Assembly: GCF_900104615.1 (NCBI RefSeq)
Contig: NZ_LT629939.1
Span: 2,438,928-2,502,927 of the forward strand
From: Merdimmobilis hominis
GTDB lineage: Bacteria > Bacillota > Clostridia > Oscillospirales > Ruminococcaceae
Length of the DNA stretch: 64,000 bases
Reading direction: 5' to 3'
Below, piece by piece: positions 4,212 to 56,720 of the stretch. The first letter of the stretch is position 1, and each line of letters begins with the position of its first letter. The notes under the pieces are model-generated. The model worked only from the letters and a program-made list of their open reading frames with translations. It searched no databases and was not told the DNA's origin. Made by a program: the position numbers and the translations under genes.

Positions 4212-4725
4212 GTGGAAGCAGATCCCTGCGCACCCACACGTCCTGTGAAAACAAGGGGCGCTGCACGCCCCTAAACCCCCGTGGTCCCTTTCTAGCGAGA
4301 GAAAGGGACGAAAGCTCGCCGGGGAGACCCCGGCCCCCCACATCGCCGCAATGGGTGCGCTCGGAAAATCTTTCTTAGAGGTTTCCCCACCTCGAGCGAA
4401 AGATTTTTCCGCTGCCGCGGATGCCCTCGCGGGGCTGCAAGAAGCCCACTTTTCAAAATAACCCCACCTAAGCAGAGGGGGAGTTTTGAGGGGGCACAGT
4501 CAGCTAACGCTGACCGTACTGACTTCGACTGTGCCGCGAGCAGTTCGGCCCCCCTTAAGTGTGCTTTTCGAGAGCACAACGCAGTTGGACAAGGGTTTCT
4601 TTCACACAAAAACCCTTGCGCGGGCGTGGGGGCGCGTGCCCCCACAAACCAATTTCAAGATGGAATCTTGTTGGGGTGCTAGGCGCCCTGCATATCCGGG
4701 TGCGGGGGTTGAAAGTCCTGGGCTT
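4212..4725 (+). repeat. Hairpin-mosaic intergenic repeat, copy 1
   Basis: No gene lies in this 500-bp gap. In order it holds: a GGGGCG-CTGCA-CGCCCC stem; a CCCTTTCT/AGAAAGGG stem; the core module GCTCGGAAAATCTTTC...GAAAGATTTTTCCGC (4357-4411); a GGGGGCACAG module with a CAGC/GCTG inversion; CGGCCCCCCTTAAGTGTGC; a CAAGGGTTT/AAACCCTTG stem; a GGGGGCGCG stem; and the terminal palindrome CAAGATGGAATCTTG (4656-4670). The same modules recur in the other copies listed in this annotation. Strand is given by the direction of the GCTCGGAAAATC core. Confidence 0.85.
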
Positions 4726-11775: not shown

Positions 11776-12440
11776 TGTGGGATTTCGCCCCCAAGCCCCC
11801 AGCCAGGGCTTTATATTTTTCAGGGGAAATCCCTGATAAGCCTAGTTCTGTGGGGCGTTACTCACTCCCACGCCCCCGAGGTTATGCAGGGTGCCTGGAA
11901 CCCCTGCACCCCGCAGGGATATAAGGGGGCCTCGTGCCGGCCCCTTGCACCCCCGGCACTTCCTTTTATGCGGATAAAAGGAAGCAAAACCCGCCGGGGA
12001 GACCCCGGTCCCCCTATCGGTGCGCCACAATGGGAACGCTCGGAAAATCTTTAGTAGGTGTGCTTGCACACCTGAGGCTCATCCACGCCTCGAGCGAAAG
12101 ATTTTTCCGCTGGCGCGGATGCCCTCGCGGGGCTGCAAAAGGTCTATTTTTCTTGGTAGCCCACCCAGGAGCAGGGGGAGTTTTGAGGGGGGCCGGACTT
12201 CACCAATTCCGCGAGCAGTTCGGCCCCCCTTAAATGTGCTTTTTGAGAGCACAACGCAGTTGGGCAAGGGTTTCTTTCACACAAAAACCCTTGCGCGGGT
12301 GTGGGGGCGCGTGCCCCCACAAGCCAACCTCAAGATGGAATCTTGAATAAGGGCCGGGGGCTTGGGGGCGTGCAGCGCCCCACAGAACTTGGGTTCCAGG
12401 GAATCTTCCCTGCCTCCAGCACAAAGGCCCTCTAAGCGGG
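11776..12440 (+). repeat. Hairpin-mosaic intergenic repeat, copy 2
   Basis: A gap of about 750 bp between convergent genes with no supported gene. It has the module order of copy 1 but a different insert inside the GCTCGGAAAATC core: a GTAGGTGTGCTTGCACAC arm followed by TGAGGCTCATCC (12043-12110), shared with copy 9. It also carries CCTTTTATGCGGATAAAAGG (11962-11981), GGGGCCGGACTTCACC, a CAAGGGTTT/AAACCCTTG stem and the palindrome CAAGATGGAATCTTG (12331-12345). Confidence 0.85.
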
Positions 12441-15185: not shown

Positions 15186-15740
15186 TTTGTGGGGCGTTGC
15201 ACGTTCCCAAACCCTGCGGAGGGGCCCTCCTGCCGGCCACAAACCCCCGAGGTTATGCAGGGCGTTACGCACCCCTGCACCCCACGCTCCCTTTTTTATG
15301 TGAAAAAAGGGAGGGAAAAGGCACATTTAAGGGGGGGCGAACTGCTCGCGACACAATTGAAGTCCGGCCCCCCTTAAAAATCCCCCTGCCCCTTGGTGTG
15401 GTCATTTCCTTTACTATTTTTCAAAATAAGTTGCCTTTTGTAGAGGGGGAGTTTTGAGGGGGAATAGGCTTTTCCTGTGTCGCGAGTTTGCCTATTCCCC
15501 CTTAAACACGCTTTGGGGTCCAGGGCCTTTTTCGTGTAAAAAGGCGCCTGGCCGGGGGCACGGGGGCTGGAGGCCCCAGACTACCGGGTATCAGGGAAAC
15601 TCCCCCTAGTGAAAAAACTTGCGCGGGCGTGGGGGGTAAGTAACGCCCCACACAACTTAGGTTATAGGGAAACCTTCCCTAAATTTGGCCGGGTGCAGGG
15701 CGAAGCGCCTGCAAGGCCAATTCCAAGATGGAATCTTGCT
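15186..15740. repeat. Hairpin-mosaic intergenic repeat, copy 3 (rearranged)
   Basis: A gap of 640 bp between two minus-strand genes with no supported gene. This copy lacks the GCTCGGAAAATC core and mixes orientations: the CACATTTAAGGGGG module reads backwards (15319-15370), while GAGGGGGAGTTTTGAGGGGG reads forwards. It shares about 80 bp with copy 5 (GTAACGCCCCACACAACTT ... AGGGAAACCTTCCCT ... GCGCCTGCA) and ends with the palindrome CAAGATGGAATCTTG (15724-15738). Confidence 0.8.
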
Positions 15741-17299: not shown

Positions 17300-17520
17300 T
17301 GGCTTCTTGCAGCCCCGCGAGGGAATCCGCGAAAGCGGAAAAATCTTTCGCTCGAGGTATGGAAACCTCTAAGAAAGATTTTCCGAGCGTACCCATTGCG
17401 ACCCACCGATAGGGGGCCGGGGTCTCCCCGGCGGGTTTTGCTTCCTTTTATCCGCATAAAAGGAAGTGCCGGGGGTGGCAAGGGGCCGGCAGGAGGGCCC
17501 CTCATTCCTGTCCGGTAGCA
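17300..17520 (-). repeat. Hairpin-mosaic intergenic repeat, copy 4 (short)
   Basis: A 220-bp fragment in reverse orientation holding the core (GAAAAATCTTTCGCTCGAGG to GAAAGATTTTCCGAGCG, 17336-17390), the CCGGGGTCTCCCCGG stem, CCTTTTATCCGCATAAAAGG (17446-17465) and the GGGGCCGGCAGGAGGGCCCC stem. It abuts the 3' end of the ROK kinase gene. The palindrome CAAGATTCCATCTTG is missing. Confidence 0.8.
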
Positions 17521-18590: not shown

Positions 18591-19165
18591 CAAGATTCCA
18601 TCTTGGGGTGGGCTTGCGGGGGTACGAATCCCTGCACCCCACAGGAATGAGGGGCCCTCCTGCCGGCCCTTCACACCCCCGGCACTTCCTTTTATGCGGA
18701 TAAAAGGAAGCAAAACCCGCCGGGGAGACCCCGGCTCCCCTATCGGTGCGCCACAATGGGTGCGCTCGGAAAATCCTCAGTAGGTGTGCTTGCACGCCTG
18801 GGCGCCCCTCGCTCCAAGGCAGAGGATTTTTCCGCTTCGCGGATGCCCGCGGGGCTGCAAGAAGCCCACTTTTCAAAATAACCCCGCCAAGGAGCAGGGG
18901 GAGCTTTCATGGGGGCACAGCCAACAAGTTGGCTGTTTGGGCTTTTCCTGTGACGCGAGGGTTGCCTATTCCCCCTTAAATGCGCTTTTCCAGTCCAATT
19001 TTATTGGACTGCGACTTCTTTCGCATAAAAAGTATGGCTCGGGGGCGTGGGGGTGAGTAACGCCCCACACAACTTCGGTTACAGGGAAACCTTCCCTGAA
19101 TTAGGCCGGGTACAGGGCGGAGCGTCTGCATAACCTTGTGGGGTGTGATGGCGTGCAGCGTCCCA
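18591..19165 (+). repeat. Hairpin-mosaic intergenic repeat, copy 5
   Basis: It fills most of the 900-bp divergent gap between the ROK kinase and groES, where no other gene is seen. It opens with CAAGATTCCATCTTG (18591-18605) and carries the CCTTTTATGCGGATAAAAGG stem and a core module with a third insert type (GTAGGTGTGCTTGCACGCC then GGGCGCCCC, 18780-18812). It closes with the ACGCCCCACACAACTT...AGGGAAACCTTCCCT...GTCTGCA module shared with copy 3. It ends about 60 bp before the groESL promoter. Confidence 0.85.
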
Positions 19166-21388: not shown

Positions 21389-21775
21389 GCATTATGCATC
21401 CCTGCGCTTCACAGGGATAAGGGGCCCTTGTGCCAGCCGCAAACTTCCACTTCAAAGGCTTTGTGCACATCCCAGTTTATGGGGCGCTGCCCGCCCCCAA
21501 ACCCCCGTGGTCCCTTTCTGGCGAGAGAAAGGGACGAAAGCTCGCCGGGGAGACCTCGGCCCCCCTTAAATGCGCTTTTTCGTAGCCCAACTTTGTTGGG
21601 CTGGGCTTTCTTTCACATAAAAAAGGGAGCGCGGGGTGCAGGGGTGCGTAACGCCCTGCATAACCTTGGGGATTTGGGGGCGTGCAGCGCTCCATAAATC
21701 CCAATACCAAGACGGAATCTTGAATAAGGGCCGGGTGCAGGGCGGAGCGCCTGCATGGAGGCCCCTTGCACCTGT
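21389..21775 (+). repeat. Hairpin-mosaic intergenic repeat, copy 6 (core deleted)
   Basis: It contains the GGGGCGCTGCCCGCCCC stem, CCCTTTCTGGCGAGAGAAAGGG (21510-21531), then jumps from GGGGAGACCTCGGCCCCCC directly to CTTAAATGCGC, a junction that in copies 1, 2 and 11 is separated by about 230 bp of core. It then has the CCCAACTTTGTTGGG stem, a CCTTTTTT/AAAAAAGG-type stem and CAAGACGGAATCTTG (21708-21722). Confidence 0.85.
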
Positions 21776-23877: not shown

Positions 23878-23930
23878 TTCAAGATTCCATCTTGCCGCAG
23901 GTTTTATGGGGCGCTGCAAACCCCATCGGT
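23878..23930 (+). repeat. Hairpin-mosaic intergenic repeat, copy 7 (minimal fragment)
   Basis: Only the terminal palindrome CAAGATTCCATCTTG (23880-23894) plus GCAGGTTTTATGGGGCGCTGC, which matches the left end of copies 11 and 12, is present. Confidence 0.7.
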
Positions 23931-28039: not shown

Positions 28040-28556
28040 GGTGCACGCCCTCAAGCTCCTGGCCTAGGCAAGATTCCATCTTGGAATTGGTTATATGGGG
28101 CGCTGCACGCCCCCTGCACCCCGCAGGAATGAGGGGCCCTCATGCCGGCCCCTTGCACCCCCGGCACTTCCTTTTATGCGGATAAAAGGAAGCAAAACCC
28201 GTCGGGGAGACCCCGGTCCCCCACTTCGCCACAAAGGGAACGCTCGGAAGATTCCCCTTAGAGGCTCCAAACGCCTCGAGCGGGAAATCTTTCCGCTGGC
28301 GCGGATGCCCTCGCGGGGTTGCAAGAGGCCCACTTTTCAAAGTAACCCTACTCAGGAGCAGGGGGATTTTTAAGGGGGCACAGTCAGCTGGCTCTGACCG
28401 TACTGACTTCAACTGTGCCGCGAATAGTTCGGCCCCTCTTAAATGTGCTTTTTCCCTCTCTTTTTTCACACAAAAAAGAGAGCACGGGGTGCAGGGTGTG
28501 CAACGCCCTGCTAGACCACTTGCAAGATGGCAGTCTTAAAATGGAGTCTTACTTAC
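28040..28556 (+). repeat. Hairpin-mosaic intergenic repeat, copy 8 (inside the pur operon)
   Basis: It occupies the purN-purH gap, where no gene is seen. It starts with CAAGATTCCATCTTG (28069-28083) and carries CCTTTTATGCGGATAAAAGG and a diverged core (GCTCGGAAGATTCCCC...GGGAAATCTTTCCGC). It then has the GGGGGCACAGTCAGCTGG module, a CTCTCTTTTTTCAC/AAAAAAGAGAG stem and a decayed terminal palindrome near 28522-28536. Confidence 0.85.
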
Positions 28557-32934: not shown

Positions 32935-33227
32935 GCTTGGCGCCTTTTGTTTGGGGGAGTTCCGGGTACAAAAAAAGGACCCTGCCATCCCACGCGCACT
33001 GCATGGGACGGAAGAATCCGCGTTGCCACCCAAATTGCCGGAGGTCCATCAACCCCGCGGCCACTCGTTTGCGCTGTAACGGGCGCACCCTCCGGCTGTT
33101 CACCGGCAGCTCCAAAAGTGGACCAGGCCCATTCCCACCGGTTTGCACCTGCCACCGGCTCTCTGCAAGGTTTGGGAACCCTTTGCTTTTTTCCTCGCTG
33201 TATCTATCCGTGTATTTGAAAGATTTT
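32935..33227 (-). promoter_or_regulatory. T-box riboswitch leader of serS
   Basis: On the minus strand the leader contains the conserved T-box bulge GGGTGGCAACGCGG (about 33017-33031). The UGGC acceptor-binding sequence would pair with GCCA, the discriminator G plus CCA of tRNA-Ser. AGAGAG near the 5' part and GGAGCTG suggest Stem I. A CCGTCCCATGC/GCGTGGGATGG hairpin, then CAGGGTCC and seven T (32970-32976), forms the terminator. I could not place the specifier codon with confidence. Confidence 0.9.
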
Positions 33228-33339: not shown

Positions 33340-33890
33340 GCCCCAAGGCCTCCGGTTATGCAAGCGTCCCGCCCTGCACCGGCCCTTATTCAAGATTCCA
33401 TCTTGGGGTGGGCTTGTGGGGGCGCGCGCCCACACGCTCGCGCAAGGGTTTTTGTGTGAAAGAAACCCTTGCCCAACTGCGTTGTGCTCTCAAAAAGCAC
33501 ATTTAAGGGGGGCCGAACTACACGCGGCACAGGAAAAGCCCGAACGGCCAACTTGTTGGCTGTGCCCCCTCAAAACTCCCCTCTGCTTAGGGCAACTACC
33601 TAGAAAAATAGGCTCTTTGCAGCGCCGCGAGGGCATCCGCATTAGCGGAAAAATCTTTCGCTCGAGGTGTGGATGAGCCTCAGGTGTGCAAGCACACCTA
33701 CTAAAGATTTTCCGAGCGTTCCCATTGTGGCGCACGGATAGGGGGGACCGGGGTCTCCCCGGCGGGTTTTGCTTCCTTTTATCCGCATAAAAGGAAGTGC
33801 CGGGGGTACAAGGGGCCGGCATGAGGGCCCCTCATTCTTGCGGGGCGTGGGGGTGTGCAGTGCCCCATAAACTGAGATGTGCAAGGGCAA
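33340..33890 (-). repeat. Hairpin-mosaic intergenic repeat, copy 9
   Basis: It fills the divergent gap between serS and the PBP gene, in reverse orientation. It has CAAGATTCCATCTTG (33391-33405), the CAAGGGTTT/AAACCCTTG stem, CACATTTAAGGGGGGCCG, a CAACTTGTTGG inversion and the core (33648-33720) with the long insert of copy 2. Then come CCTTTTATCCGCATAAAAGG (33775-33794), GGGGCCGGCATGAGGGCCCC and a GGGGCG stem. It is almost an inverted copy of copy 2. Confidence 0.85.
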
Positions 33891-37064: not shown

Positions 37065-37730
37065 ATAGGAGGGCCTCGCTGCTGGCCCCCAACCCCCAGG
37101 TTATGCAGGGGCTGCACCCAGCCCCATTTTCTATAGGGAAGTTTCCCTGTAACTCTGGTTTCCTGGGGCTTCCAGCCCCCGCACCCCCGGCCAGGGCCTT
37201 TTTGCACGAAAAAGGCCCTGGACCCAAAAGCGTGTTTAAGGGGGAATAGGCAAAGCTCGCGACACAGTGCAAGCCTATTCCCCCTCAAAACTCCCCCTGT
37301 GCCAAGGGTAGTCACCAAGAAAAATAGGCTTCTTACAGCGCCGCGAGGGAATCCGCGCAGCGGAAAAATCTTTCGCTCGAGGTGTGGAGAGCCTCTAAGA
37401 AAGATTTTCCGAGCGTGCCTATTGTGGCGCACAGATAGGGGGGCCGGGGTCTCCCCGGCGAGCTTTGGTTCCTTTCTCTCGCCAGAAAGGAACCACGGGG
37501 GTTTGGGGGTGTGCAACGCCCCATAATGCCCCACCCCAAGATGGAATCTTGAATAGGGATCGGATACAGGGCGCAACGCCCTGCATAACGAATTGTAAGA
37601 TGGAATCTTACCCTGTTCTGGGGGTTTGGGGGCGTGCAGCGCCCCATAAATCCCAATCCCAAGATGGAATCTATAAGGGCCGGGTGCAGGGCGGAGCGCC
37701 TGCATAGCCGGGGTTTGGGCGCCGGAAGCC
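37065..37730 (-). repeat. Hairpin-mosaic intergenic repeat, copy 10 (with tandem mini-units)
   Basis: The gap of 700 bp before the SRP RNA holds no gene. In reverse orientation it carries GGGAAGTTTCCC, a CCAGGGCCTTTTT/AAAAAGGCCCTGG stem (37193-37223), the GGGGGAATAGG/CCTATTCCCCC pair (37239-37284), the core (37364-37414) and the CCTTTCTCTCGCCAGAAAGG stem. It then has three successive palindromes (37537-37551, 37596-37610, and a truncated one near 37660) separated by ~60-bp hairpin units. Confidence 0.85.
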
Positions 37731-39653: not shown

Positions 39654-40004
39654 ATGAAAGCAAGACTGCCCCAGGGCTATGGCAAAGCGCCGGCCAACAA
39701 CATGAACAGCATGATCAAACAAGCTCAGAAAATGCAGGAAGAACTGGCCAAAAAACAGGCCGAGCTGGATGAGATGGAGTTTTCCACCACTGCAGGCGGC
39801 GGCGTTGTCACCGTGGTGATGAACGGCAAAAAAGAGATGAAATCCCTGACCATCAAACCCGAGATCGTCAACGCCGACGACATCGAGATGCTCCAGGACC
39901 TGATTATGGCCGCCACCAATGAGGCGCTGCGCACCATCGAGGAAAAAACAGCCCAGGAGATGGACAAAATCACCGGCGGACTGAACATCCCCGGCTTGAT
40001 GTAA
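39654..40004 (+). CDS. YbaB/EbfC nucleoid-associated protein
   Basis: A protein of 116 residues with the YbaB fold: an N-terminal helix rich in Gln/Met/Lys ([24 protein letters not shown]), a central strand region with [20 protein letters not shown], and a C-terminal helix. It binds DNA as a tweezer-shaped dimer. Its place between dnaX and recR is a conserved gene order; recR starts seven bases after its stop. Confidence 0.95.
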
Positions 40005-40011
40005 CCTTCCC

Positions 40012-40611
40012 ATGGCATACAATGTCCTGCCCTTGACCCGGCTGATCGAACAGTTTGAACGGCTGCCGGGCATCGGCAAAAAGACGGCCCAGCGGCTGGC
40101 CTTTTATGTGCTGGGATTGCCCCAGGAAAAGGCCCAGGAGTTCGCCAACGCCATCCTGGACGCCAAGGAGAAGATCAAGCGGTGCGCGGTCTGCCAGAAC
40201 CTGACCGACGAGGAGCTTTGCCCCATCTGCCGCAGCGCTGACCGGGACCGCTCCATCCTCTGCGTGGTGGAGGACCCCCGGGACGTCATTGCCTTTGAGC
40301 GCACCAAGGAGTATCACGGCCTGTACCATGTGCTCCACGGGCTCATCTCCCCCATGGACGGCATCGGCCCTGAACAGCTGACCATTAAGGAACTGCTGGC
40401 CCGCCTCCAATCCGGAGAGGTGCAGGAGGTGGTCATGGCCACCAACCCCACGGTGGAAGGGGAAGCCACCGCCATGTATGTGGCCCGGCTCCTCAAGCCC
40501 CTGGGTATCAAGGTGACCCGCCTGGCCTATGGCATCCCAGTGGGCGGCAACCTGGAATATGCCGATGAGGTGACCCTGTACCGCGCCTTGGAGGGCAGAA
40601 GCGAAATTTAA
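40012..40611 (+). CDS. recR: Recombination mediator RecR
   Basis: A protein of 199 residues, standard length. An N-terminal helix-hairpin-helix ([17 protein letters not shown], residues 19-35) precedes a C4 zinc finger ([16 protein letters not shown], near 57-72). The Toprim domain follows, with [27 protein letters not shown] and the C-terminal Walker-like [16 protein letters not shown]. It acts with RecF/RecO in loading RecA at gaps. Confidence 0.97.
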
Positions 40612-40635
40612 AAGGGGCTTCCTGAGGCTTTCAGA

Positions 40636-41105
40636 CCCTAACCCCCCCATTCAAGATTCCATCTTGTGGCAGGTTTTATGGGGCGCTGCCCGCCCCCAAA
40701 CCCCCGTGGTCCCTATCTAGCGAGAGAAAGGAACCAAAGCTCGCCGGGGAGACCCTGGTCCCCCTATTTGTGCGCCACAATGGGAACGCTCGGAAAATCT
40801 TTCTTAGAGGTTTCCCCACCTCGGGCGAAAGATTTTTCCGCTGGCGCGGATTCCCTCGCGGGGCTGCAAAAGGTCTATTTTTCTTGGTAGCCCACCCAGG
40901 AACAGGGAGATTTTTAAGGGGGCACAGTCAGCTAACGCTGACCGTACTGACTTCAACTGTGCCGCGTGCTGTTCGGCCCCTCTTAAATGTGCTTTTTGGT
41001 AGCCCAACTTTGTTGGGCTGGGCTTTCTTTCACATAAAAAAGGGAGCGCGGGTGTGGGGGCGCGGGCCCCCACAAATCAATTCCAAGATGCAATCTTGAG
41101 GTCGG
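40636..41105 (+). repeat. Hairpin-mosaic intergenic repeat, copy 11 (best-bounded unit)
   Basis: A unit of 447 bp delimited by CAAGATTCCATCTTG (40652-40666) at the left and CAAGATGCAATCTTG (41084-41098) at the right. Between them in order: GGGGCGCTGCCCGCCCC; a partly decayed CCCTATCTAGCGAGAGAAAGG; the core GCTCGGAAAATCTTTC...GAAAGATTTTTCCGC (40788-40843); GGGGGCACAGTCAGC; CGGCCCCTCTTAAATGTGC; CCCAACTTTGTTGGG (41002-41016); a CTTTCTTTCACATAAAAAAGGGAG stem; and GGGGGCGCGGGCCCCC. No gene is seen. Confidence 0.88.
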
Positions 41106-41186
41106 CAGGAGAGCCTCTTACAAGAAAAAAGCCCTTTCTCCTTCGGCTTTTGGGCAGGGGAAGGGCGAAGGCGAGGCGATACCAGC

Positions 41187-41597
41187 ATGGAACAGATCAA
41201 GGCCCTCCTCCAGGGGGACAATCTGAAAAAGTTTTTGAAGTTTGCCCTCACCGGCGTGGGAAACACCTTAGTGGATTTGATCCTTTTTCGGGTGCTCTAT
41301 ACCTATTTGGGGGTGAACATCTATCTCTCCCAGGTGTGCAGCTATTCGGCGGGGATGCTCAACAGCTACGTGGTCAACCGCAGCTGGACCTTCCGCTCCA
41401 AGGAGAAGTTCTTTAGCGCCCAAATGGTCCGGTTTTTGGCCTTGGGCGGGTTGATGCTCGCTTTGAGCACCGGCTTGCTTTACCTGTTCACCGGCTGGGG
41501 CCTTTCTGGGATGGCCGCCAAGCTGTTGACCACCGGCCTTGTTTTGGTGGTCAATTTCCTCTTGAGCAAGCTGTGGGTCTTCCGCAGTGGGAAATAA
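41187..41597 (+). CDS. GtrA family membrane protein
   Basis: A protein of 136 residues with four predicted helices (about residues 15-35, 40-60, 75-97 and 105-125). FALTGVGNTLVDLILFRVLY and SYVVNRSWTFRSKEKFFSAQMVRFL are typical of GtrA, with a matching C-terminal LLSKLWVFRSGK. GtrA proteins are linked to flipping or transfer of lipid-linked sugars in cell-wall or O-antigen glycosylation. No glycosyltransferase is adjacent, so the substrate is unknown. Confidence 0.88.
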   Translation: MEQIKALLQGDNLKKFLKFALTGVGNTLVDLILFRVLYTYLGVNIYLSQVCSYSAGMLNSYVVNRSWTFRSKEKFFSAQMVRFLALGGLMLALSTGLLYLFTGWGLSGMAAKLLTTGLVLVVNFLLSKLWVFRSGK

Positions 41598-41610
41598 ACC
41601 CAAGCTCTGA

Positions 41611-41640
41611 AAAGGCCCCTTGCATGGGGAAGGGGCTTTG
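41611..41640 (+). terminator. Terminator-like hairpin after the GtrA gene
   Basis: AAAGGCCCCTT pairs with AAGGGGCTTT around GCATGGGG; the T run is short. Confidence 0.6.
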
Positions 41641-41708
41641 TGGTATACTCACAAAAGGGATTGCCACCCCATATTTGAGGCGATCTTTGGAAAGGAGTGG
41701 CTGGCTTC

Positions 41709-42170
41709 ATGGCCAAATTGGAAACCAAAACCATTGCCGTCAACAAAAAAGCCCGCCACGACTATTTCGTCGAGGAGAGCTTTGAAACCGGGATTGTCTT
41801 AGCTGGCACCGAGGTGAAATCCCTGCGGGCCGGCACGGTCAACCTGAAAGACAGCTGGTGCGATATCGAAAATGGCGAGATCTTTGTCAAACAGATGCAC
41901 ATCAGCCCTTATGAAAAAGGGAATATTTTCAATAAAGATCCTATGCGCACCCGCAAACTGCTGATGCACCGGCGGGAAATCCACCGGCTCCTGGGGCTGC
42001 TCAAACAGGAGGGGTATACCTTGATCCCCCTCTCCTTGTATTTCAAAGGCTCCCGGGTGAAATTGCAGCTGGGCTTGTGCAAGGGTAAAAAACTCTACGA
42101 CAAACGGGAAGACGCCGCCAAGCGGGATGCCAAACGGGATATTGACCGGGCTCTGAAACAGCGGCGCTGA
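41709..42170 (+). CDS. smpB: SsrA-binding protein SmpB
   Basis: A protein of 153 residues, standard length. N-terminal [31 protein letters not shown], central [14 protein letters not shown], and the basic C-terminal tail ([23 protein letters not shown]) that enters the ribosome are all present. It delivers tmRNA to stalled ribosomes; ssrA follows 44 bases later, a common arrangement. The ATG at 41709 is 11 bases after AAAGGAG; a GTG at 41697 overlaps that site. Confidence 0.96.
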
Positions 42171-42214
42171 CCAAACATTCAATTCCGGGGAGACAAGGGT
42201 TTCCCCTCATATTT

Positions 42215-42562
42215 GGGGGCGTAAAGGTTTCGACGAGGATTGTGCAGTGTGAGAAGCGAGTAGAGGCGCACGACCTCTATAAAACGTGACTTTTTAAAAA
42301 TAAACGCTAACGATAACGTTGCATTTGCTGCTTAATTAAGCAGCCGTCTTGCCCCGGAGTACCACGGCTGGGAACAAGGCGTCGATGAGTGGTGAACGAT
42401 CCGTCTGAGCTCCTCGTAAGACAGGATTGTATTAGGGGATACCAAAGCCTTTAGCCTGTTTGCCGGCGATTGGCTGCGGGAAACTTAAAAGACAAACTGC
42501 ACTCGGAGATGCTTGCATGAATCGGTTTTCGGACGGGGGTTCAATTCCCCCCGCCTCCACCA
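42215..42562 (+). ncRNA. ssrA: Transfer-messenger RNA (tmRNA)
   Basis: A molecule of 348 nt from GGGGGCGTAAAGGTTTCGAC to the encoded CCA. The acceptor arms (GGGGGCG / CGCCTCC-ACCA) and T arm (GGGGGTTCAATTCCCCC) are intact. The tag reading frame ends GCT-AAC-GAT-AAC-GTT-GCA-TTT-GCT-GCT-TAA (ANDNVAFAA), stopping at 42333-42335. The resume codon is likely GAC at 42288, which would make the tag DFLKINANDNVAFAA. It rescues stalled ribosomes with SmpB. Its 3' end is the boundary of the mobile island. Confidence 0.97.
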
Positions 42563-42641
42563 AATGGACATTACATGAACACCTACTTTTTCAAAGGCGG
42601 CTTTGCCGTCAGGGTGTGGCTGTGATGTCGAAACAGAAACT

Positions 42642-42682
42642 GAGGGTCAAGGTACGGATGTGCCTTGACCCTCGGTTTTTTG
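42642..42682 (+). terminator. Terminator downstream of ssrA
   Basis: GAGGGTCAAGG pairs perfectly with CCTTGACCCTC, flanked by AAC/GTT, and ends in TTTTTTG. It lies 80 bases into the island, so it may have replaced the original ssrA terminator. Confidence 0.85.
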
Positions 42683-42733
42683 TATCTCTACAGTGGTTAT
42701 TGAGCAGAAGATAAGCAGCAGAATATTTATCAA

Positions 42734-43516
42734 TCAAATTTTTCTTCTTGCGATTTTTTTCATCTTTGTGTACCCTTCACATCCAATAACAGAAATGGAA
42801 TTTAGTTTTTTCAATGCATTTTCTATGCTGATTCTAATTTGCATGGGAGTATATCTATCAAGAGCGCCCCGGTTGACCGCCATAATTATATCTTGCTTTT
42901 CTTTATTGTAAATACTCCAGAACTGATCATAATTTCTGTTTTGATTTGTAGTGCTGAAGTGTTTCAGCATATTTTCTACCGACCGCTTTTGTTCGCCATT
43001 CATACCATCTGGAATGGTTGCAACTAATCCCTTAACTGCCTCATTAACATCGACCGGATTTTGGCTGCACAAATTTAAGGATTGCAAGACAGCATTTCCT
43101 TCCATTTGCATAAGTGTTTGCTGCGTATAAAAGAAAAAGTTCTTCTGCAAATTTTTCATCAATTCCTGCTGTTCAAGAATCTCTGTAGCACAATTATAAA
43201 ATTCATCAAAGGTATTGAAGCTAAATGAATCCAGCTTGCGGATAAAATAGTGTTTGTATTGATCCCAGTAGTCTGTCTTAAAAAGAATTTGTGACTCATA
43301 AAAGGCAGAGTCATTCAGAACTCCTTCGGTAATATAGGAACCTATTTCTCTAATGCGTTTCTGTAAATCCTCAATTTGCAGAATGATCAATGAAGCTGCT
43401 TCTGAAACCTTCCGACGTTCCTGCGCCCAGTAGATAAAGAATGCAGATGCACCTACTAAAACAAGTAAAATATTAAGCCAATTAGAGCCAACAAATTCTC
43501 CTATTTTTTCCCACAT
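42734..43516 (-). CDS. Membrane-anchored coiled-coil protein of the RM operon
   Basis: A protein of 260 residues, AT-rich, of no family I recognise. One N-terminal membrane helix (about residues 13-30, WLNILLVLVGASAFFIYWA) is followed by an almost wholly helical cytoplasmic part with coiled-coil character (residues 35-110 and 115-150). Its start lies 16 bases inside the end of the HEPN gene, so the two are translationally coupled. This makes it the last gene of the hsdR-hsdM-hsdS-HEPN-membrane operon. A role as membrane partner, sensor or effector of the HEPN protein is inferred only from this coupling. Confidence 0.7.
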   Translation of the reverse strand: MWEKIGEFVGSNWLNILLVLVGASAFFIYWAQERRKVSEAASLIILQIEDLQKRIREIGSYITEGVLNDSAFYESQILFKTDYWDQYKHYFIRKLDSFSFNTFDEFYNCATEILEQQELMKNLQKNFFFYTQQTLMQMEGNAVLQSLNLCSQNPVDVNEAVKGLVATIPDGMNGEQKRSVENMLKHFSTTNQNRNYDQFWSIYNKEKQDIIMAVNRGALDRYTPMQIRISIENALKKLNSISVIGCEGYTKMKKIARRKI

Positions 43517-44250
43517 ATACTTTCACCATCTCTTTTCTTTTGTTTTTTGGAATATCGTATGTTCTTCTTGAGAAAACAGATTAGTTTCCAGCGATCGATT
43601 CGTTTGGGCATATTATTGTATATTTTTTGATAATCAACTTTTGACTGAATCCACCGCCCATTTTTTGTAATACTATGACCATCCAATAAATTTAGGAAGA
43701 AAGAAACTTCAATAATTATGGAAATAGTATTGCTAACCCCTGACCCAATGTGATTGTGTTGATAAAGATTTCTTGGGCCTTGAAAAAGGCCCATAAGCAT
43801 ATACCTGATGCCATCTTGTTCATTTCGATCTGACTCTGTTTTTAGTTCATTTATTGCAATTAAAGGAACTTTTTTTGTTTCTCCCGTTTTCTTATCTACC
43901 TCAAATGACAATGCTCTTGTTGCCAAATCAAATCCGTGTGAATCTAAACCAGATTTTTTCTTAAGATAGTTTTCTAAAACTACGAAGGCTTCTCGTGCGG
44001 ATGCTTCAAACTCAGATTTGTACATAAGGTTTATTGCTTTCTCAAGTGCAGGATGCGTATCGTAAATGTCAAAAAAACCTTTTAGTTTATCCAAAGATTC
44101 TGGCATTAAACTTCCACAACACGGGCAAAATTTGAAATCCCTATAGCCAAATCCGTAAGTTCCATTTTCAAACTCTTTAAGTTCTTTGCGTCTTGGCGGA
44201 AGATTACATTGATTCGGGCAAGAGTATTTTTTGCCTCTCAAGATTTTCAC
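43501..44250 (-). CDS. Zinc-ribbon plus HEPN-like (TIGR02391/Ymh-type) protein
   Basis: A protein of 249 residues. The N terminus has a CxxxC pair (CPNQC) and a CPCC motif near residues 10-45, a likely zinc ribbon. Residues 70-215 resemble the Ymh/TIGR02391 group of HEPN-like proteins: AREAFVVLENYLKKKSGL, then GLFQGPRNLYQHNH near 155-168, in which RNLYQH fits the Rx4-6H ribonuclease motif. It begins one base after the hsdS stop, with a GTG at 44250; a TTG 9 bases later has better spacing from GAGGTG. Position in an RM operon suggests an abortive-infection or RNA-cleaving accessory role. Catalysis is inferred from the motif only. Confidence 0.72.
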   Translation of the reverse strand: MKILRGKKYSCPNQCNLPPRRKELKEFENGTYGFGYRDFKFCPCCGSLMPESLDKLKGFFDIYDTHPALEKAINLMYKSEFEASAREAFVVLENYLKKKSGLDSHGFDLATRALSFEVDKKTGETKKVPLIAINELKTESDRNEQDGIRYMLMGLFQGPRNLYQHNHIGSGVSNTISIIIEVSFFLNLLDGHSITKNGRWIQSKVDYQKIYNNMPKRIDRWKLICFLKKNIRYSKKQKKRDGESICGKK

Positions 44251-44251
44251 C

Positions 44252-45676
44252 TCACTTCAACTGCTCACACAGCGGCAGCAGCTCTTCCAGTTTTTCGACG
44301 ATGCGTTTTTGTTCGGCAAGGGGTGGGAGGGGAACTGGAATAGAATTCATTTTTTCTTGGTTCATTTTAGGCTGCGCTGTCCCTGTTACATATTTTGCCA
44401 AACTGATAGCATTTACAAAATACATCATATACTCTAATGACAATGTACCTTCAACACAGTCCAAAACATGTGCGTGATTATTTACCCAATACTGCCCTTG
44501 AGCCAAGAATGCAATAGGCGTACTTCTGGTTAATAAATTAGCTCCATCTTCACCAATAAGCAGAAGTGTTTTATCAAACAGATACCGATCTACTTTATCA
44601 ATGACCCCTGATGCGCCATAGTAATCAAAATTTTTTTCGAGTTTACTTCTCTCTGCAACAGACAAAGGAATTCTTTCGGAATCTCTGTTGATCATAATGC
44701 TTCCAAAGCGAACCCATTTCCAAGTCGTTGGAATATCAAAGAGAATCTCATCCTCTTTGAATTCTCCATACTCACCTTTTTCTTTCTTGATCTTCTTCTC
44801 GGCAATCAGCCGCTGTTTTTCCGCCTGAATTTTTTGGAAGAGTTCCTCTGCGGTACCTTCTTCCGGGCGCTGTTCCACCAGTTTGCCCTGGATGGCGTAC
44901 TGCAAGAGAGATTTTTTCATATCCTCCGGGAATCGGCTGTTGAACTGCTCCAGTTTGCTCCACGCCTGTTCGTAGCGGTCAATATAGGGCAGCAGCTCCT
45001 CGATTTTGGCAACAATCCGCTTTTGCTCGGCAAGAGGTGGGAGAGAGATTAAAGCGTTTACAATTTTTTCTTTTGAAATATTAGGCTGTGCACCGCCTTC
45101 ACCCAGTTTAATAAAAGCTGTTCGAGAAGCCATCAAAAAATAAAATAAAAATTTGTTATAAATGCCTTCATAGGGGATACAGGCACAACAAGCCTGATTT
45201 GTGGTAGCTTCTATGCCCAAAATTCCAAGTTTTCCAATGGTTGCTCCATACATTGCCATTAACACAGAACCTATAGGGTTTAATCGTACCGAAGTTTTCT
45301 CAAGCGCCAGTTCCGTGATATACTCTGGAATTTCGGTTATAGTACCGTCGTTCAAATCACCAGTTTTTAACCAAGGAATTGTTCCACCATAATATTCCGA
45401 ATTTGTTCTGGATGGTGTTGCACCTGATCCCCAAGAACCACAATTTCCAAGCCTCACCCACTTCCAACTCTCCGGAATATCAAACGGCTTTTCGTCCTCG
45501 GTAATTTCGGGCAGCGGCTTTTCCTTTTTGATTTTCTTTTCAGCAATCAGCCGCTGTTTTTCCTCCTGAATTTTTTGGAAAAGTTCCTCGGCTGTGCCTT
45601 CCTCCGGCCGCTGTTCCACCAGCTTGCCCTGAATGGCCAGCTGCAAAATGCTGTTTTTCAGTTCCTGTGGGGTCAT
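44252..45676 (-). CDS. hsdS: Type I restriction-modification specificity subunit
   Basis: A protein of 474 residues with the two-TRD layout. Each half begins with a nearly identical segment (AIQGKLVEQRPEEGTAEELF) followed by a helical EKQRLIAEKKIKKEK spacer. TRD1 spans roughly residues 60-215 and TRD2 270-430, each ending in a conserved PLAEQKRIV..IEELLP helix. It chooses the bipartite DNA target of the HsdM/HsdR complex. The repeated segments are also similar at DNA level (about 44770-44900 and 45530-45645), which could allow TRD exchange. The start overlaps the hsdM stop (ATGA). Confidence 0.95.
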   Translation of the reverse strand: MTPQELKNSILQLAIQGKLVEQRPEEGTAEELFQKIQEEKQRLIAEKKIKKEKPLPEITEDEKPFDIPESWKWVRLGNCGSWGSGATPSRTNSEYYGGTIPWLKTGDLNDGTITEIPEYITELALEKTSVRLNPIGSVLMAMYGATIGKLGILGIEATTNQACCACIPYEGIYNKFLFYFLMASRTAFIKLGEGGAQPNISKEKIVNALISLPPLAEQKRIVAKIEELLPYIDRYEQAWSKLEQFNSRFPEDMKKSLLQYAIQGKLVEQRPEEGTAEELFQKIQAEKQRLIAEKKIKKEKGEYGEFKEDEILFDIPTTWKWVRFGSIMINRDSERIPLSVAERSKLEKNFDYYGASGVIDKVDRYLFDKTLLLIGEDGANLLTRSTPIAFLAQGQYWVNNHAHVLDCVEGTLSLEYMMYFVNAISLAKYVTGTAQPKMNQEKMNSIPVPLPPLAEQKRIVEKLEELLPLCEQLK

Positions 45677-47151
45677 TCGGCATTCCCTCCCAGCAAGTTG
45701 GTGATCTGTTCCAGCACCCGGTCAATCTCCGCATTGAGGGAGGCCCGCTGTTCCTCGTATCGCTGAATCAAGTCCATGGGGGCCAGGATTTCTTCTTCCT
45801 CATGAGGATAGCCGCACTGGTCCAGATTGTAGCCCAGCTCCTCGGTAAGCTGCTGGACGGTGAACGTTTTGGACTTATCAAAGCCGTCCTCGGTAATCTC
45901 CTGCCGGTCGTTCCACCAGTCCAGCACCGGCTGGAAATGCTCCGGCTTCATGGGCCTGGTTTTTGAGAAGTGCTTGTAGCCCTCCGGCATATCCAGACGG
46001 TAAAACCAGGTTTCCTCGGTGGGGTGGGTGTTGTCAAAGAACAGGATATTGGTGGTGATGGAGGTATAGGGGGAGAACACGCTGCCTGGTAGGCGGACGA
46101 TGGTATGCAGGTTGAACTCCCGCAGCAGCTTCTTTTTAATGTTCACCTTGGCGTTGTCGGTGCCAAACAGAAAGCCATCGGGCAGAATCACCGCCGCCCG
46201 GCCATTCTTTTTGAGTCGGTACATAATCACCGACATGAACAGGTCGGCGGTTTCGCTGCTGGCCAAATCGGTGGGAAAGTGATTTTTCACATCGGCCTTT
46301 TCGCTGCCGCCGTAGGGGGGATTCATCAGAATCACGTCCACCTTGTCGCCCTCGGTATAGTCCAGCACATCGTGAAGCAGGGTGTTGGCGTGGTACACCT
46401 GCGGCACATCCAGCCCATGCAGCAAAAGGTTGGTCACGCAGAGCATATAGGGGAACTGCTTTTTCTCAATGCCGTAGATGGAATTGCTGTACGCTTCTTC
46501 ATCCTCGGTGGTGTTCACCAGCTTTTTCAGCTCTTTCAGCCAGCTGACGATAAAGCCGCCGGTACCGCAGGCAAAGTCCGCCATGGTTTCGCCGATTTGG
46601 GGCTGAATGACCTGCGCCATAAAGTCAGTGACAGCCCGGGGCGTGTAAAACTCACCAGCAGAACCAGCGCTTTGCAGCTCTTTCAAAATCGTTTCGTAGA
46701 TTTCGCCAAAGGCGTGACTTTCCTCATAATCGCTGAAATCCAGCTCGTCAATGACGTTGATGACCTGACGGAGCAGAACGCCGTCTTTCATGTAGTTGTT
46801 GGCATCGGCGAAGGTGGTCTGCACAATGGCCTTTTTGATGGGGGTAGAAGCGTCTACCGGCAGATTTTTCAAGGTTGGAAACAGCGTATTGTTGACAAAA
46901 TCCAGCAGCTTGTCGCCGGTCATGGCAATGCCGGATTTATCATCGTGCGCCCAATTCTGCCAGCGGCATTCTTCCGGAATGATGGAGGTATAGTCCTCGT
47001 CATCCCATTCCCAGTCCTGCTCCTTGGCGTCATATACTTTCAAAAACAGCATCCAGGCGATCTGCTCGATGCGCTGGGCGTCGCCGTTGATGCCAGCGTC
47101 ATTGCGCATGATGTCCCGCAGCCGTTTTACAAATCCTGTTAAGTTGCTCAT
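45673..47151 (-). CDS. hsdM: Type I restriction-modification DNA methyltransferase subunit
   Basis: A protein of 492 residues. An N-terminal HsdM helical domain (residues 5-130) precedes an N6-adenine methyltransferase domain, with SAM motif FACGTGGF near residue 193 and catalytic NPPYGG near 277. It methylates adenine in the target set by HsdS. It begins two bases after the hsdR stop and ends with ATGA overlap to hsdS, so the core operon is tightly coupled. Confidence 0.96.
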   Translation of the reverse strand: MSNLTGFVKRLRDIMRNDAGINGDAQRIEQIAWMLFLKVYDAKEQDWEWDDEDYTSIIPEECRWQNWAHDDKSGIAMTGDKLLDFVNNTLFPTLKNLPVDASTPIKKAIVQTTFADANNYMKDGVLLRQVINVIDELDFSDYEESHAFGEIYETILKELQSAGSAGEFYTPRAVTDFMAQVIQPQIGETMADFACGTGGFIVSWLKELKKLVNTTEDEEAYSNSIYGIEKKQFPYMLCVTNLLLHGLDVPQVYHANTLLHDVLDYTEGDKVDVILMNPPYGGSEKADVKNHFPTDLASSETADLFMSVIMYRLKKNGRAAVILPDGFLFGTDNAKVNIKKKLLREFNLHTIVRLPGSVFSPYTSITTNILFFDNTHPTEETWFYRLDMPEGYKHFSKTRPMKPEHFQPVLDWWNDRQEITEDGFDKSKTFTVQQLTEELGYNLDQCGYPHEEEEILAPMDLIQRYEEQRASLNAEIDRVLEQITNLLGGNAE

Positions 47152-47152
47152 A

Positions 47153-49501
47153 TTAAATTACCTCGTCCATATAAATCGCCTGTTCCAGTTCCTGCACCGC
47201 TTTCAGATACCCGGCTTTTCCGCCGAAATATCCGGCGATTTTAGCTGGTTTTCCCAGCTTCAGGAACGGGTCGAGCTTCAAAATCTCGGTTTTCTCGATT
47301 TCGTAAATGCCCGTGTTCATGTACTTGTCCAGCAAAGCCTCCAGCACTTCCCGGGCAACGCCGCTGTATTTGCTGAAAAAGTCTCGCTTTTTCACATTGT
47401 TGGCCCGCTCTTTCCGGGTCAGCGGCTTTTTATCAAAGGCCACATGACAGATGAAATCAAAATCATCCACATCGGTCATCTTCTGGTCTGCTTTCAGCAG
47501 CTCCAGGTCAATCCCACGGTCATGGAGCAGGTCGCGGATCTGCTCTTTCTTCTCTTGGGCTGACCACTGGCGGATGAAATTGTCCAGAGAAGCGTATTCG
47601 CCCCGGATGTTTTCCTTGGTGTAGTCCACGATACTCTCCTGGCGCAGCAGCTTGCCGTTTGCATCATATACTGACACGGTTTTGTGAGTGATCTGCACCT
47701 TGCAGCCGTGCTTGTCCACAATGGGCTTTTGTTTCGGTTCTGGCGGAGTTTCCCGGTCTTCTTTTCCATCACCGTCCGGCGTGTCTTTGGGATCAGCCTG
47801 CTTTCCGCCCGGCGTAAAGCCCTCATCCATTTCAATGGGGCCATCCCAATCCGGGTCAGCAAACAGGCGGGTGACATTGCGGAAATCCATAACCACAAAA
47901 TGGGTCTTGCCCTCTTTTTCCCGCAGACGGGTTCCACGGCCAATGATCTGCTTGAACTCGGTCATGGAGCCGATCATCTCATCCAGCACGATCAACTTGG
48001 TCATTTTGCAGTCTGCACCGGTGGAAAGAAGTTTGGAAGTCGTGGCGATGACCGGATAGGGCGATGAAACCGAGATAAAATATTTCAGCTTTCCTTTGCC
48101 GTAGTCATCCCCACCGGTGATGCGCACCACATAGTCGGGATTTTCCTTCATCATATCGGCGTTGAGTTTTGCCAAGGCGTCCCGCATCCGCAGAGCGGCA
48201 TCCTCCGTGGCACAGAACACGATAGTCTTTGCCATGCGGTCGGTGCTTTTCAGGTATTTGGTGATTTCCTCGGCTACCTGCTGGATACGATCTTCTATGA
48301 TGATGTTGTAGTCGTAATCACTGTTGGTGTAAATCCGGTCCGGGATTTCTATGCCGTTGATGTCTTTTTGGCCTTTGCGAGGACGCCAGCCTTCCCCAAT
48401 ATCCGTCATAATATTGATGACCTTGAAGGGGGCCAGGAAGCCATCCTCGATGCCTTCTTTCAGGCTGTATGTATAAATCGGTTCCCCAAAGTAACTGAGG
48501 TTGGAAATATACTTGGTTTCCTTCGGCGTGGCCGTCATGCCGATCTGGGTGGCAGACTGGAAATATTCCAGAATTCTGCGCCAGCGGCTTTCTTCTTTCG
48601 CAGAACCTCTATGGCACTCGTCTACGATAATCAGGTCGAAGAAGTCGGGGGAAAACAGTTCGCTGAAATGCTCCTGGTCATCGTCACCCACCAACTGCTG
48701 ATACAAGGAGAAGTACACCTCATGAGAGGTAATGGTGCTTTTATCGTCTTTCGCCACATTGATTTTATGAGTCACTTTTTCCAGCGGGGCAAAATCCTGC
48801 TGGATAGACTGATCCACCAGAATATTACGGTCAGCAAGATAAAGGATTTTTCGTTTCATACCGCTTTGCAGCATCCGATAGACGATCTGGAAGGCAGTAT
48901 AGGTCTTGCCGGTGCCGGTGGCCATAACCAGCAGAATCCGCTGCTGTCCCCGTGCAATGGCGTCCACGGTACGGTTGATGGCATTACGCTGATAATATCG
49001 GGGCGGGTAGGTGTTCTGGCTGGTATAGTAGGGCTGCTCCAGTACGGTCTCTTGCTGAGGCGTCAGGCCGGATTCCTGCTTATACCGGGCGACCAGTTCC
49101 TGCTCTGTGGGGAACTCATCCAGACCAAATTCCCGCTCCTGTCCGGTCAAAAAATCATGTTCCACAAACCCATCCCCGTTGGAGCTGTACGCAAACGGCA
49201 CATCCAGCATTTTGGCATAGGTCATGGCCTGCTGCAAGCCGTGAGAAACGCTGTGGGTGTTATCTTTGGCTTCCACAACGGCAATGGGATTATTTACGCT
49301 GAGGTAGAGGATATAGTCCGCCCGTTTTGGCTTTTCACGGAATACAAAATTGCCTTTCAGGTTGATCTTTCCGTCTGTAATCCGGGTTTCCATGGTGATT
49401 TTCTCCCGGCTCCACTTGGAAGTGATGGACGGGGTAATATATTGAAGTTTAATATCTTCTTCGCTCATCTGATGCTTGGGTAAAATCGGACTCAAGTTCA
49501 T
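47153..49501 (-). CDS. hsdR: Type I restriction enzyme R subunit
   Basis: A protein of about 782 residues. The N-terminal PD-(D/E)XK nuclease core is ADYILYL...PIAVVEAKD near residues 58-80. The SF2 translocase follows with Walker A GTGTGKT near 193, DECHRG near 291, TATPKE, and the later GRGTRLREKEGKTHFVVMDF motif. A C-terminal domain (residues 560-780) contacts HsdM. It is shorter than EcoKI-type HsdR (over 1000 residues). The ATG at 49501 lies very close to its ribosome site, and a GTG at 49513 overlaps the XRE stop, so translation is probably coupled to the XRE gene; the exact start is uncertain. Confidence 0.93.
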   Translation of the reverse strand: MNLSPILPKHQMSEEDIKLQYITPSITSKWSREKITMETRITDGKINLKGNFVFREKPKRADYILYLSVNNPIAVVEAKDNTHSVSHGLQQAMTYAKMLDVPFAYSSNGDGFVEHDFLTGQEREFGLDEFPTEQELVARYKQESGLTPQQETVLEQPYYTSQNTYPPRYYQRNAINRTVDAIARGQQRILLVMATGTGKTYTAFQIVYRMLQSGMKRKILYLADRNILVDQSIQQDFAPLEKVTHKINVAKDDKSTITSHEVYFSLYQQLVGDDDQEHFSELFSPDFFDLIIVDECHRGSAKEESRWRRILEYFQSATQIGMTATPKETKYISNLSYFGEPIYTYSLKEGIEDGFLAPFKVINIMTDIGEGWRPRKGQKDINGIEIPDRIYTNSDYDYNIIIEDRIQQVAEEITKYLKSTDRMAKTIVFCATEDAALRMRDALAKLNADMMKENPDYVVRITGGDDYGKGKLKYFISVSSPYPVIATTSKLLSTGADCKMTKLIVLDEMIGSMTEFKQIIGRGTRLREKEGKTHFVVMDFRNVTRLFADPDWDGPIEMDEGFTPGGKQADPKDTPDGDGKEDRETPPEPKQKPIVDKHGCKVQITHKTVSVYDANGKLLRQESIVDYTKENIRGEYASLDNFIRQWSAQEKKEQIRDLLHDRGIDLELLKADQKMTDVDDFDFICHVAFDKKPLTRKERANNVKKRDFFSKYSGVAREVLEALLDKYMNTGIYEIEKTEILKLDPFLKLGKPAKIAGYFGGKAGYLKAVQELEQAIYMDEVI

Positions 49502-49509
49502 TCCTCCCT

Positions 49510-49725
49510 TCACTTTGCGGAATCATCTGGTAAAATATCTACAATATCATCCAATGTACAGTTCAGTGCCTGGCAGATTTTAACCAGTACTTCTACGCGC
49601 ACATCTTCGTTTTTTCCCAACTTTGCCATAGCATTGGTAGTGATTTTTGAGGCTCTGATTAAATCTGTCTTGCTCATCCCTTCGTCGATGAGAATTTTCC
49701 ATAGCTTATTGTAACAAACAGGCAT
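49510..49725 (-). CDS. XRE/Cro-type helix-turn-helix regulator (RM operon controller)
   Basis: A protein of 71 residues forming one HTH domain of the Cro/C1 type (HTH_26-like): LWKILIDEGMSKTDLIRASKITTNAMAKLGKNE, then VEVLVKICQALNCTLDDIVDILP. It is the first gene of the hsd operon, with AAGGAGG before its ATG, and its stop overlaps the possible hsdR start. Position and size suggest a C-protein-like controller that times restriction against methylation. The target would be the repeats at its promoter. Confidence 0.85.
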   Translation of the reverse strand: MPVCYNKLWKILIDEGMSKTDLIRASKITTNAMAKLGKNEDVRVEVLVKICQALNCTLDDIVDILPDDSAK

Positions 49726-49742
49726 AATCTTCCTCCTTGTTT

Positions 49743-49817
49743 TACCATTTTGTTATCTACCATTTTATCACAACATAAGAAGAATTTCAATTTATAATTG
49801 AATATCTCAATATTCAA
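49743..49817 (-). promoter_or_regulatory. hsd operon promoter with candidate operators
   Basis: On the minus strand TTGAAA (49785-49790) is 17 bp from TAAAAT (49762-49767). Two direct repeats, TACCATTTT on the plus strand at 49743-49751 and 49758-49766, overlap the -10 box and the leader. A perfect inverted repeat TTGAATAT-CTCA-ATATTCAA (49798-49817) lies seven bases upstream of the -35 box. Both are candidate sites for the XRE controller. Confidence 0.7.
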
Positions 49818-49927
49818 GTTAGCTTGTACCAAGCATAGAAATAGTAGTATAATTAGCATCTCTTGCCTATTTTACATCATGAAGGCTATGCATGTGTGGT
49901 GCGCATTGAAAAGGACTCATCTTGGAA

Positions 49928-50146
49928 GATGGGGTGGCAATATACCACCCCATCCGGCGATATAATTTCCCCAAAAAGGGGGTCCAAAGGGGTGCTCAAA
50001 TTTCGCACCCCTTTACTTCGTCAGGATAACTGCACCCTCAATCCCAACTGGTATGTCGCGAAATGCGACGTACCCCCATGGAGCAAACCATTCCTCCCCC
50101 ATTACTGCACCAAACAAAGGGATGCCCCGAAACAGGGCATCCCTTT
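49928..50146. repeat. Three perfect hairpins between hsd promoter and plasmid-relic genes
   Basis: GATGGGGTGG/CCACCCCATC (49928-49954), AAAGGGGTGC/GCACCCCTTT (49986-50014) and AAAGGGATGCCC/GGGCATCCCTTT (50117-50146). The last may end transcription of the small gene at 50170-50343. No gene is seen between 49863 and 50169. Confidence 0.7.
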
Positions 50147-50169
50147 GCATATTATCTTTGAAGTTCACT

Positions 50170-50343: not shown

Positions 50344-50381
50344 GGTGACTTACTCCCACGGCAAGACCTTCCTGGCTCAAC

Positions 50382-50483: not shown

Positions 50484-50599
50484 AGAACTCCTTTCCCATC
50501 CCTTCCCATCCGGGAGTTTCACCGGAAAATCCCGCACAAAATATCTCGGATAGGAATGGAATGAATCGAATTTACCTGAATAATTTTATCTTCTTCTTT

Positions 50600-51061: not shown

Positions 51062-51178
51062 GGTGTATTTACCTCCTTGCGGACAATTAGAACCTGATTT
51101 TGAGGGGTCAAGGATACCGCGTATTCACCTCCATAGGTGCCAGTTTTCAAATGGGGTATATATCCGCATGGGAGCACT

Positions 51179-56084: not shown

Positions 56085-56720
56085 CCAGCTCCCCCGCACC
56101 CGGCTAGGCGGTTTATCAAGATTGCATTTTACAGCAGGTTTTATGGGGCGCTGCACACCCCCAAACCCCCGTGGTCCCTTTCTGACGAGAGAAAGGAACC
56201 AAAGCTCGCCGGGGAGACCCCGGTCCCCCTATTTGTGCGCCACAATGGGTGCGCTCGGAAAATCTTTCTTAAAGGTTTCCCCACCTCGAGCAAAAGATTT
56301 TTCCGCTGCCGCGGATTCCCTCGCGGGGCTGCAAGAAGCCCACTTTTCGAAATAACCTCACCTAGGCCGAGGGGGATTTTTAAAGGGGCACAGCCAACTG
56401 GCGTTGGCCGTTCGGGATTTTCCTGTGTCGCTAGGGTTGCATTCCTCCTTAAATGCGCTTTGTGGCCGCAAGGAAAGCAAAGCTTTCCAGCGTGAGAATT
56501 GCAAAGCAATTCTCTGAAGCCCAACGGAGTTGGGCTAGGGCTTTATTTCGAAGAAAAAGCCTTGCTCGAGGTCGTAGGGGCGAGAGCGCCCTACATAGCC
56601 AACGAAAGATGGAATCTTGCCCTGAACTGGGAGTGCGGGGTCTGGAAGCCCCGAGAAGTCAAGATTCCATGGGAACTCCCTGGAGAAAGGGGGGACAACC
56701 CCCGTGAAATAAAACAATCG
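56085..56720 (+). repeat. Hairpin-mosaic intergenic repeat, copy 12
   Basis: It fills most of the 850-bp divergent gap between ansA and ispD; nothing recognisable is seen in 55886-56084. Order: a decayed palindrome (56117-56131), GGGGCGCTGCACACCCC, CCCTTTCTGACGAGAGAAAGG, the core (56251-56307), GGGGCACAGCCAACTGGCG, CCTTAAATGCGC, then extra stems GGAAAGCAAAGCTTTCC (56472-56488), GAGAATTGCAAAGCAATTCTC (56493-56513) and CCCAACGGAGTTGGG. AAAGATGGAATCTTG (56605-56619) and half a palindrome at 56659 close it. Confidence 0.83.

Follow-up and report, generated by a model that had tools for sequence, protein, structure and literature searches.

The question raised by this locus is what delimits the repeat to which copy 11 belongs, and whether the 15-bp palindrome found near each of its ends is the site that defines the unit. 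An earlier note on the 64,000-nucleotide stretch of Merdimmobilis hominis DNA analysed here, hereafter the window, had suggested that it could be. The 447-bp unit of copy 11 does have a palindrome at each end, and the remarks in that note on the palindromes of copies 1, 2, 3, 8, and 12 agree with the sequences of those copies. A search of the window for the pattern CAAGATNNNATCTTG with up to 2 mismatches returned 17 places, 10 of them exact palindromes, compared to a mean of 2.45 and a maximum of 7 in 100 shuffles. The whole genome held 21 exact palindromes and 30 with at most 1 mismatch; a backwards-pattern control gave 2. The spacer of the palindrome is asymmetric, reading TCC on the left and, on the right, GGA (GCA in copy 11); within one element, the two palindromes are therefore also inverted relative to each other. 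Those of copy 11 form an inverted pair of 16 nt at 94%.

Genome-wide, the palindrome (up to 3 mismatches, within the span searched) accompanied 13 of the 22 left modules and 13 of the 24 right ones and was absent from 9 and 11, respectively; these counts leave unscored the palindrome of element 3 and, in copy 8, the decayed one on the right. Five copies (A, F1, L, 11, and 12) have it at both ends. The outer 60 bp of 31 of 34 oriented palindromes were similar to other such flanks at scores above the 99% point of the null (26, with a maximum of 28), which was drawn from approximately 300 random genomic 60-mers and may be lenient for C-rich intergenic DNA because such 60-mers are probably mostly coding. 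These 34 sites were kept from 42 palindrome sites found; six omitted places (L054:1916, L055:590, L057:2420, L061:2249, L062:2110, and window position 43804) were without element sequence and had no BLAST hits on either side. For copy 11, the left outer flank scored 31 and the right one 27, the latter barely over the cut-off and under the null maximum, so that the test is weak for the right edge; no BLAST hit was obtained for the outer flank on either side. Farther out, at 120 to 180 bp from the palindromes, BLAST hits occurred at 3 of the 34 sites (row count). No target-site duplication was seen by eye at the palindrome edges, which are uncertain. Because family-like sequence continues outward and many modules have no palindrome, the palindrome is an optional module inside the end region rather than what delimits the unit. 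The genome-wide comparison of flanks does not support the palindrome as the unit edge, whereas the observation that palindromes lie near both ends, as an inverted pair, stands.

Table 1. Features of copy 11 and its flanks, and the other copies in the window (positions are those of the window)
Feature	Position	Strand	Remarks
Outer left flank, family-like	40612..40651	+	From the recR stop codon to the palindrome; decayed hairpin module by eye
Left palindrome CAAGATTCCATCTTG	40652..40666	.	Optional end-region module
Spacer with G+C-rich hairpin GGGGCG...CGCCCC near 40680-40697	40667..40707	+	From sequence; recurs in other copies
Left pseudoknot module, stem 40708-40718/40725-40735	40708..40745	+	Pairs kept in 18 copies
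Left pseudoknot, loop and loop partner (GCGAG/CTCGC)	40719..40724; 40740..40744	+	Two stem mismatches in copy 11
G+C-rich hairpin adjoining the pseudoknot, CCGGGGAGACCC(T)GG	40744..40758	+	Helix 3 of the 18-copy analysis
Long stem 40791-40803/40827-40840, one-base bulge	40791..40840	+	Helix 4; two-sided change at 5 of 12 pairs
Central stem of the right half, 40913-40923/40976-40987	40913..40987	+	By eye, 18-copy alignment
Right pseudoknot module, same plan on the other strand	40987..41046	-	By eye in copy 11; stem imperfect
Right pseudoknot, tail (ATGTG) and hairpin loop (CACAT)	40987..40991; 41031..41035	-	By eye
Right palindrome CAAGATGCAATCTTG	41084..41098	.	Inverted relative to the left palindrome
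Outer right flank, weakly family-like	41099..41125	+	
Copy 1	4255..4670	+	Ends approximate
Copy 2	11959..12345	+	Ends approximate
Copy 3	15268..15738	-	Rearranged, inner segment inverted; ends approximate
Copy 4	17307..17466	-	Left half only; ends approximate
Copy 5	18591..19053	+	Ends approximate
Copy 6	21476..21722	+	Inner part deleted; ends approximate
Copy 7	23880..23917	+	Solo left end; ends approximate
Copy 8	28069..28538	+	Ends approximate
Copy 9	33391..33797	-	Ends approximate
Copy 10	37191..37674	-	Three left ends in tandem; ends approximate
Copy 12	56117..56619	+	Ends approximate

What the ends have in common is a predicted fold. On the left, the loop of an 11-bp hairpin can pair with bases 4 to 7 letters behind the stem, which is the plan of an H-type pseudoknot, and the loop and tail change together among copies (GCGAG/CTCGC, GCGAA/TTCGC, GCGG/CCGC, and CAG/CTG). 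The right end has the same plan on the other strand (ATGTG/CACAT, ATGCG/CGCAT, and ACACG/CGTGT) and was recognised automatically in 11 copies. Copy 11 was missed by the strict pseudoknot scan because of its stem mismatches. Each of its strands folds better than shuffles (z of -5.63 and -7.90). Across 18 copies, 95.1% of cells pair compared to 88.2% when shuffled, and 69 cells show two-sided change compared to 26.5 (s.d. 3.7) when shuffled and at most 22 when slid; in the pseudoknot helix, 3 of 4 pairs show such change. The number of pairs with two-sided change, 14, lies within the shuffles (12.5; equalled or exceeded in 91 of 500), and there are fewer pair types than in the shuffles. Since stem variants are few, recombination between variants, rather than stepwise compensation, may give much of the covariation signal. 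Assignment of the folding strand from G-T versus A-C mismatches was abandoned, the cells being too few and some of them spurious stem extensions.

The unit gave 45 BLAST pieces in the 2.58-Mb genome, and a left-module covariance model built from the 18 copies gave 23 matches there. The best in-genome BLAST match to copy 11 was 85% over most of its length, so recent movement is not evident in this genome, and no DNA match to the unit was found in the 20 other genomes compared. Copies grouped by hand made 27 element loci, of which 12 fall inside the 64-kb window compared to 0.67 expected (binomial P of 6.6e-13, with copies treated as independent). Their make-up is mosaic, with an inner deletion (copy 6), a solo end (copy 7), tandem ends spaced approximately 58-64 bp apart (copy 10, A, and M), and inverted inner segments (copy 3, K, and L). 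Element K carries a module of the right type on its left, a sign that either end can stand in for the other.

The covariance model matched 3 of 197 genomes of the family (this genome, G147, and G036), 11 of 394 genomes of the order (this genome and 10 others, from families f1, f13, f14, and f18), and 3 of 391 genomes of the class (this genome, G209, and G829, the last from another order). Among 24 unique matches of the 29 foreign ones, 21 had at least 4 loop-tail pairs, compared to a mean of 5.7 and a maximum of 13 loci in 2000 trials with re-dealt tails. This test used 24 of 25 rows of one match set (a partial, overlapping row was omitted) and 4 of 4 and 1 of 6 rows of two further sets, the omitted rows of which had E of at least 0.19. 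The misses were G473 and G036, with no pairing, and one G382 locus, with 3 bp. By eye, the G829 match shows only 3 loop-tail pairs; that of G473 has no such pairing and adjoins tmRNA-like sequence. Both matches may therefore be weak. An exact-pattern scan of the named genomes found nothing, its gap range being too short for the G147 form. A link to phages was rejected: the pattern matched 13 and 4 times in viral contigs, and 0 of the 17 loci matched the model.

In the related genus g139, the 24 loci selected for their matches contained 15 pairs of facing pseudoknots; 13 pairs were spaced at 425-434 bp and 2 at 476-477 bp, and two of the 15 represent the same place in G209 and G315. Further facing pairs were spaced at 263 bp in G479, 597 bp in G501, 581 bp in G507, and 292 and 297 bp in the M. 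hominis genome; those called at L056 and at window 18685/19011 are doubtful. The same scan of 226,619 sampled bases of the M. hominis genome (19 of 20 samples used) gave 2 pseudoknots and no facing pair. The consensus fold of 13 g139 elements (of 17 listed) reached -111.8 kcal/mol; of its 106 pairs, 21 show two-sided change. The mean for 20 column shuffles was -47.7, and the covariation term was small (-3.32). A common edge, GCTCCGC(T)GGG, adjoins the pseudoknot at 30 of 38 g139 ends. Outside this edge, at 11 of the 38 ends, lies a palindrome of other sequence, in its fullest form CTTGCCAGNCTGGCAAG, and some copies with unrelated flanks are without it. Edge and palindrome are related in the same way in the window.

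The earlier note had called for empty sites in related strains, and one was found in g139. An intergenic place that carries an element in G315 and element-like sequence in G209 has no element in G382, in which the matching flanks lie 54 bp apart; these flanks are too diverged for the breakpoint to be read. A second place is occupied in all three species, with the elements of G209 and G315 lying in the opposite orientation to that of G382 and with similar outer sequence on both sides. The simple reading is an inversion in place, the other being independent insertion. Inverted ends may therefore explain the occurrence of both orientations, as had been proposed for the palindrome, although inverted end modules alone would suffice.

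We consider it probable, at roughly 60%, that copy 11 is a copy of a mostly non-coding element resembling MITEs and BOX elements, with inverted end modules that may fold as H-type pseudoknots. The sequences show that both ends can pair and that this pairing persists although the letters change; they also show the inverted arrangement, the mosaics, and, between species of g139, the presence, absence, and opposite orientation of elements. Such elements would spread by means of an enzyme supplied in trans, which would recognise the ends in their folded state, whether single-stranded DNA or RNA, and recombination would exchange end modules among copies. A more tentative extension, which we think rather less probable than its opposite, is that these repeats represent a class of mobile element whose terminal inverted repeats are conserved as an H-type pseudoknot fold and not as sequence, read by an enzyme as a folded single strand of DNA or RNA, and spanning at least 4 families of one order with a match in another order.

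The palindrome might still be where a simple MITE truly ends and is recombined or cut, with the repeats outside it being debris of earlier insertions or tandem ends. The inverted pair with asymmetric spacers, the tandem ends of A, M, and copy 10 at a spacing of approximately 58-64 bp, the absence of BLAST hits in the outer flanks of copy 11, and the recurrence of a different palindrome near g139 ends would all suit that explanation. We regard it as unlikely, given the family-like sequence outside 31 of 34 sites, the modules of both kinds that have no palindrome, and the g139 copies that, without a palindrome, share the common edge adjoining the pseudoknot. Somewhat less likely again is that the repeats are not mobile elements but are kept as cis-acting RNA elements (terminators, attenuators, or stability elements), multiplied through gene conversion and duplication. 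A conserved fold, an intergenic position as read from the flanks, and the strong clustering of 12 of 27 loci in 64 kb would fit such a role, as would the preference for one strand in folding (16 of 18 left modules here favour the reverse strand, and 12 of 13 g139 elements the given strand). However, the g139 consensus folds equally well on the two strands (-111.8 and -113.3), both orientations occur, one of three species has an empty site, and no constant relation to neighbouring genes emerged, the orientation result of a simple ORF caller having been discarded because strands were mis-assigned (e.g. that of recR).

Small ORFs that we take to be Arc-like lie inside elements A and F and within approximately 200 bp of C and D, and these are all 4 of the protein matches in the genome at E of 0.001 or less. 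This association in the M. hominis genome is striking, and a CopG-like ORF in element L, with Pfam matches under the curated cut-offs, adds to it. Such proteins could bind the palindrome as part of the movement system, which we consider very improbable. Most copies are without an ORF, and CAAGAT or ATCTTG occurs upstream of related genes in 9 of 79 loci (of 80) compared to a background of 3 of 79, so weak an enrichment that the palindrome was rejected as an operator of these proteins. For proteins A and F, no Pfam match rose above cut-off, so the name Arc-like is one of recognition. The Flavonifractor relatives occupy a fixed place, before a gene that is presumably comF. The strict scan found a pseudoknot of this plan just upstream of the gene in 2 of 80 Arc-like-gene loci (L082 and L088). 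In the Flavonifractor group, repeats containing a hairpin built on this plan precede the small Arc-like genes of L082, L084, and L088 and are missing from that position in L083, L085, and L091.

Elements of the kind favoured above can be compared with three known systems. BOX elements of Streptococcus pneumoniae are characterised, in the accessible part of their description, as composite, interspersed, non-autonomous intergenic repeats with variable inner modules and extensive predicted folding (PMC3049150). The elements here resemble them in each of these respects, the variable inner modules being seen as mosaics. They differ in modules and taxon, and that part of the BOX description mentions neither a pseudoknot nor an inverted pair of end folds. 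Prokaryotic MITEs, from the accessible text of their description, are short, intergenic, and mostly geneless, with terminal inverted repeats, a predicted stable folded transcript, direct repeats, and a high A+T content that is typical but not strictly defining (PMC10969869). As far as that text allows the comparison, the likeness extends to size, inverted ends (here the end modules and palindromes), intergenic position, predicted stable folding, and the usual lack of a gene. Unlike A+T-rich MITEs, the foreign matches have a G+C content of 0.52-0.77; no duplication was seen by eye, and the ends agree more as a fold than as sequence. REP and BIME repeats, mobilised with RAYT transposases, offer in the accessible portion of their description a precedent for hairpin units, mosaics, and recognition of a single-stranded hairpin (PMC3733652); set against that portion, the unit here is longer and has pseudoknots. 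Identity with the REP/RAYT system was rejected on the absence of a Y1 (IS200-type) transposase: PF01797 had 0 matches in the M. hominis genome, compared to matches in 5 of 14 control genomes. No autonomous parent or transposase was met in the search, which covered the Y1_Tnp family. A known RNA family was also rejected, since Rfam 15 gave no match within an element at the gathering score in the window, in six loci searched at a relaxed E-value, or in seven loci of other genomes. A T-box leader-like match on the minus strand at window 33001-33204 (L007) scored 80.7 bits, below its gathering score of 93.

As a rule, what is recognised at the end of a transposable element is double-stranded sequence or a simple hairpin. 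A pseudoknot kept through about a dozen loop sequences would point instead to a recogniser of folded nucleic acid, and with a conserved end fold one could connect repeats that remain separate when compared by sequence. This would likewise account for a group of G+C-rich repeats found between genes in gut Clostridia, of which our searches returned no description. Among the titles and abstract openings returned by literature searches, whose coverage leaves out most subscription journals, none described such elements, and novelty is claimed solely relative to that literature and Rfam 15.

The 12 element loci of the window lie between positions 4255 and 56619, the others being elsewhere on the chromosome. 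Sampled GC skew suggested an origin near 1.2-1.3 Mb, with the window towards the other side of the chromosome; samples of G147 gave no clear pattern matching this picture. Window positions 40001-52000 have a G+C content of 0.48 compared to 0.52-0.61 elsewhere in the window, the fall beginning at about the tmRNA gene (42215-42562), and this stretch looks like an island integrated at the tmRNA. Most repeat pieces of G147 lie in two regions of some 350-450 kb, and its contigs C5 and C6 (L246-L257) carry long nested mosaics of related and other repeats, with 134 BLAST pieces. At L306 (G209:C50), the right end hairpin of an element holds a second insertion with inverted ends of its own, AGGAACGTCCGATTCCC and GGGAATCGGAGGTTCCT.
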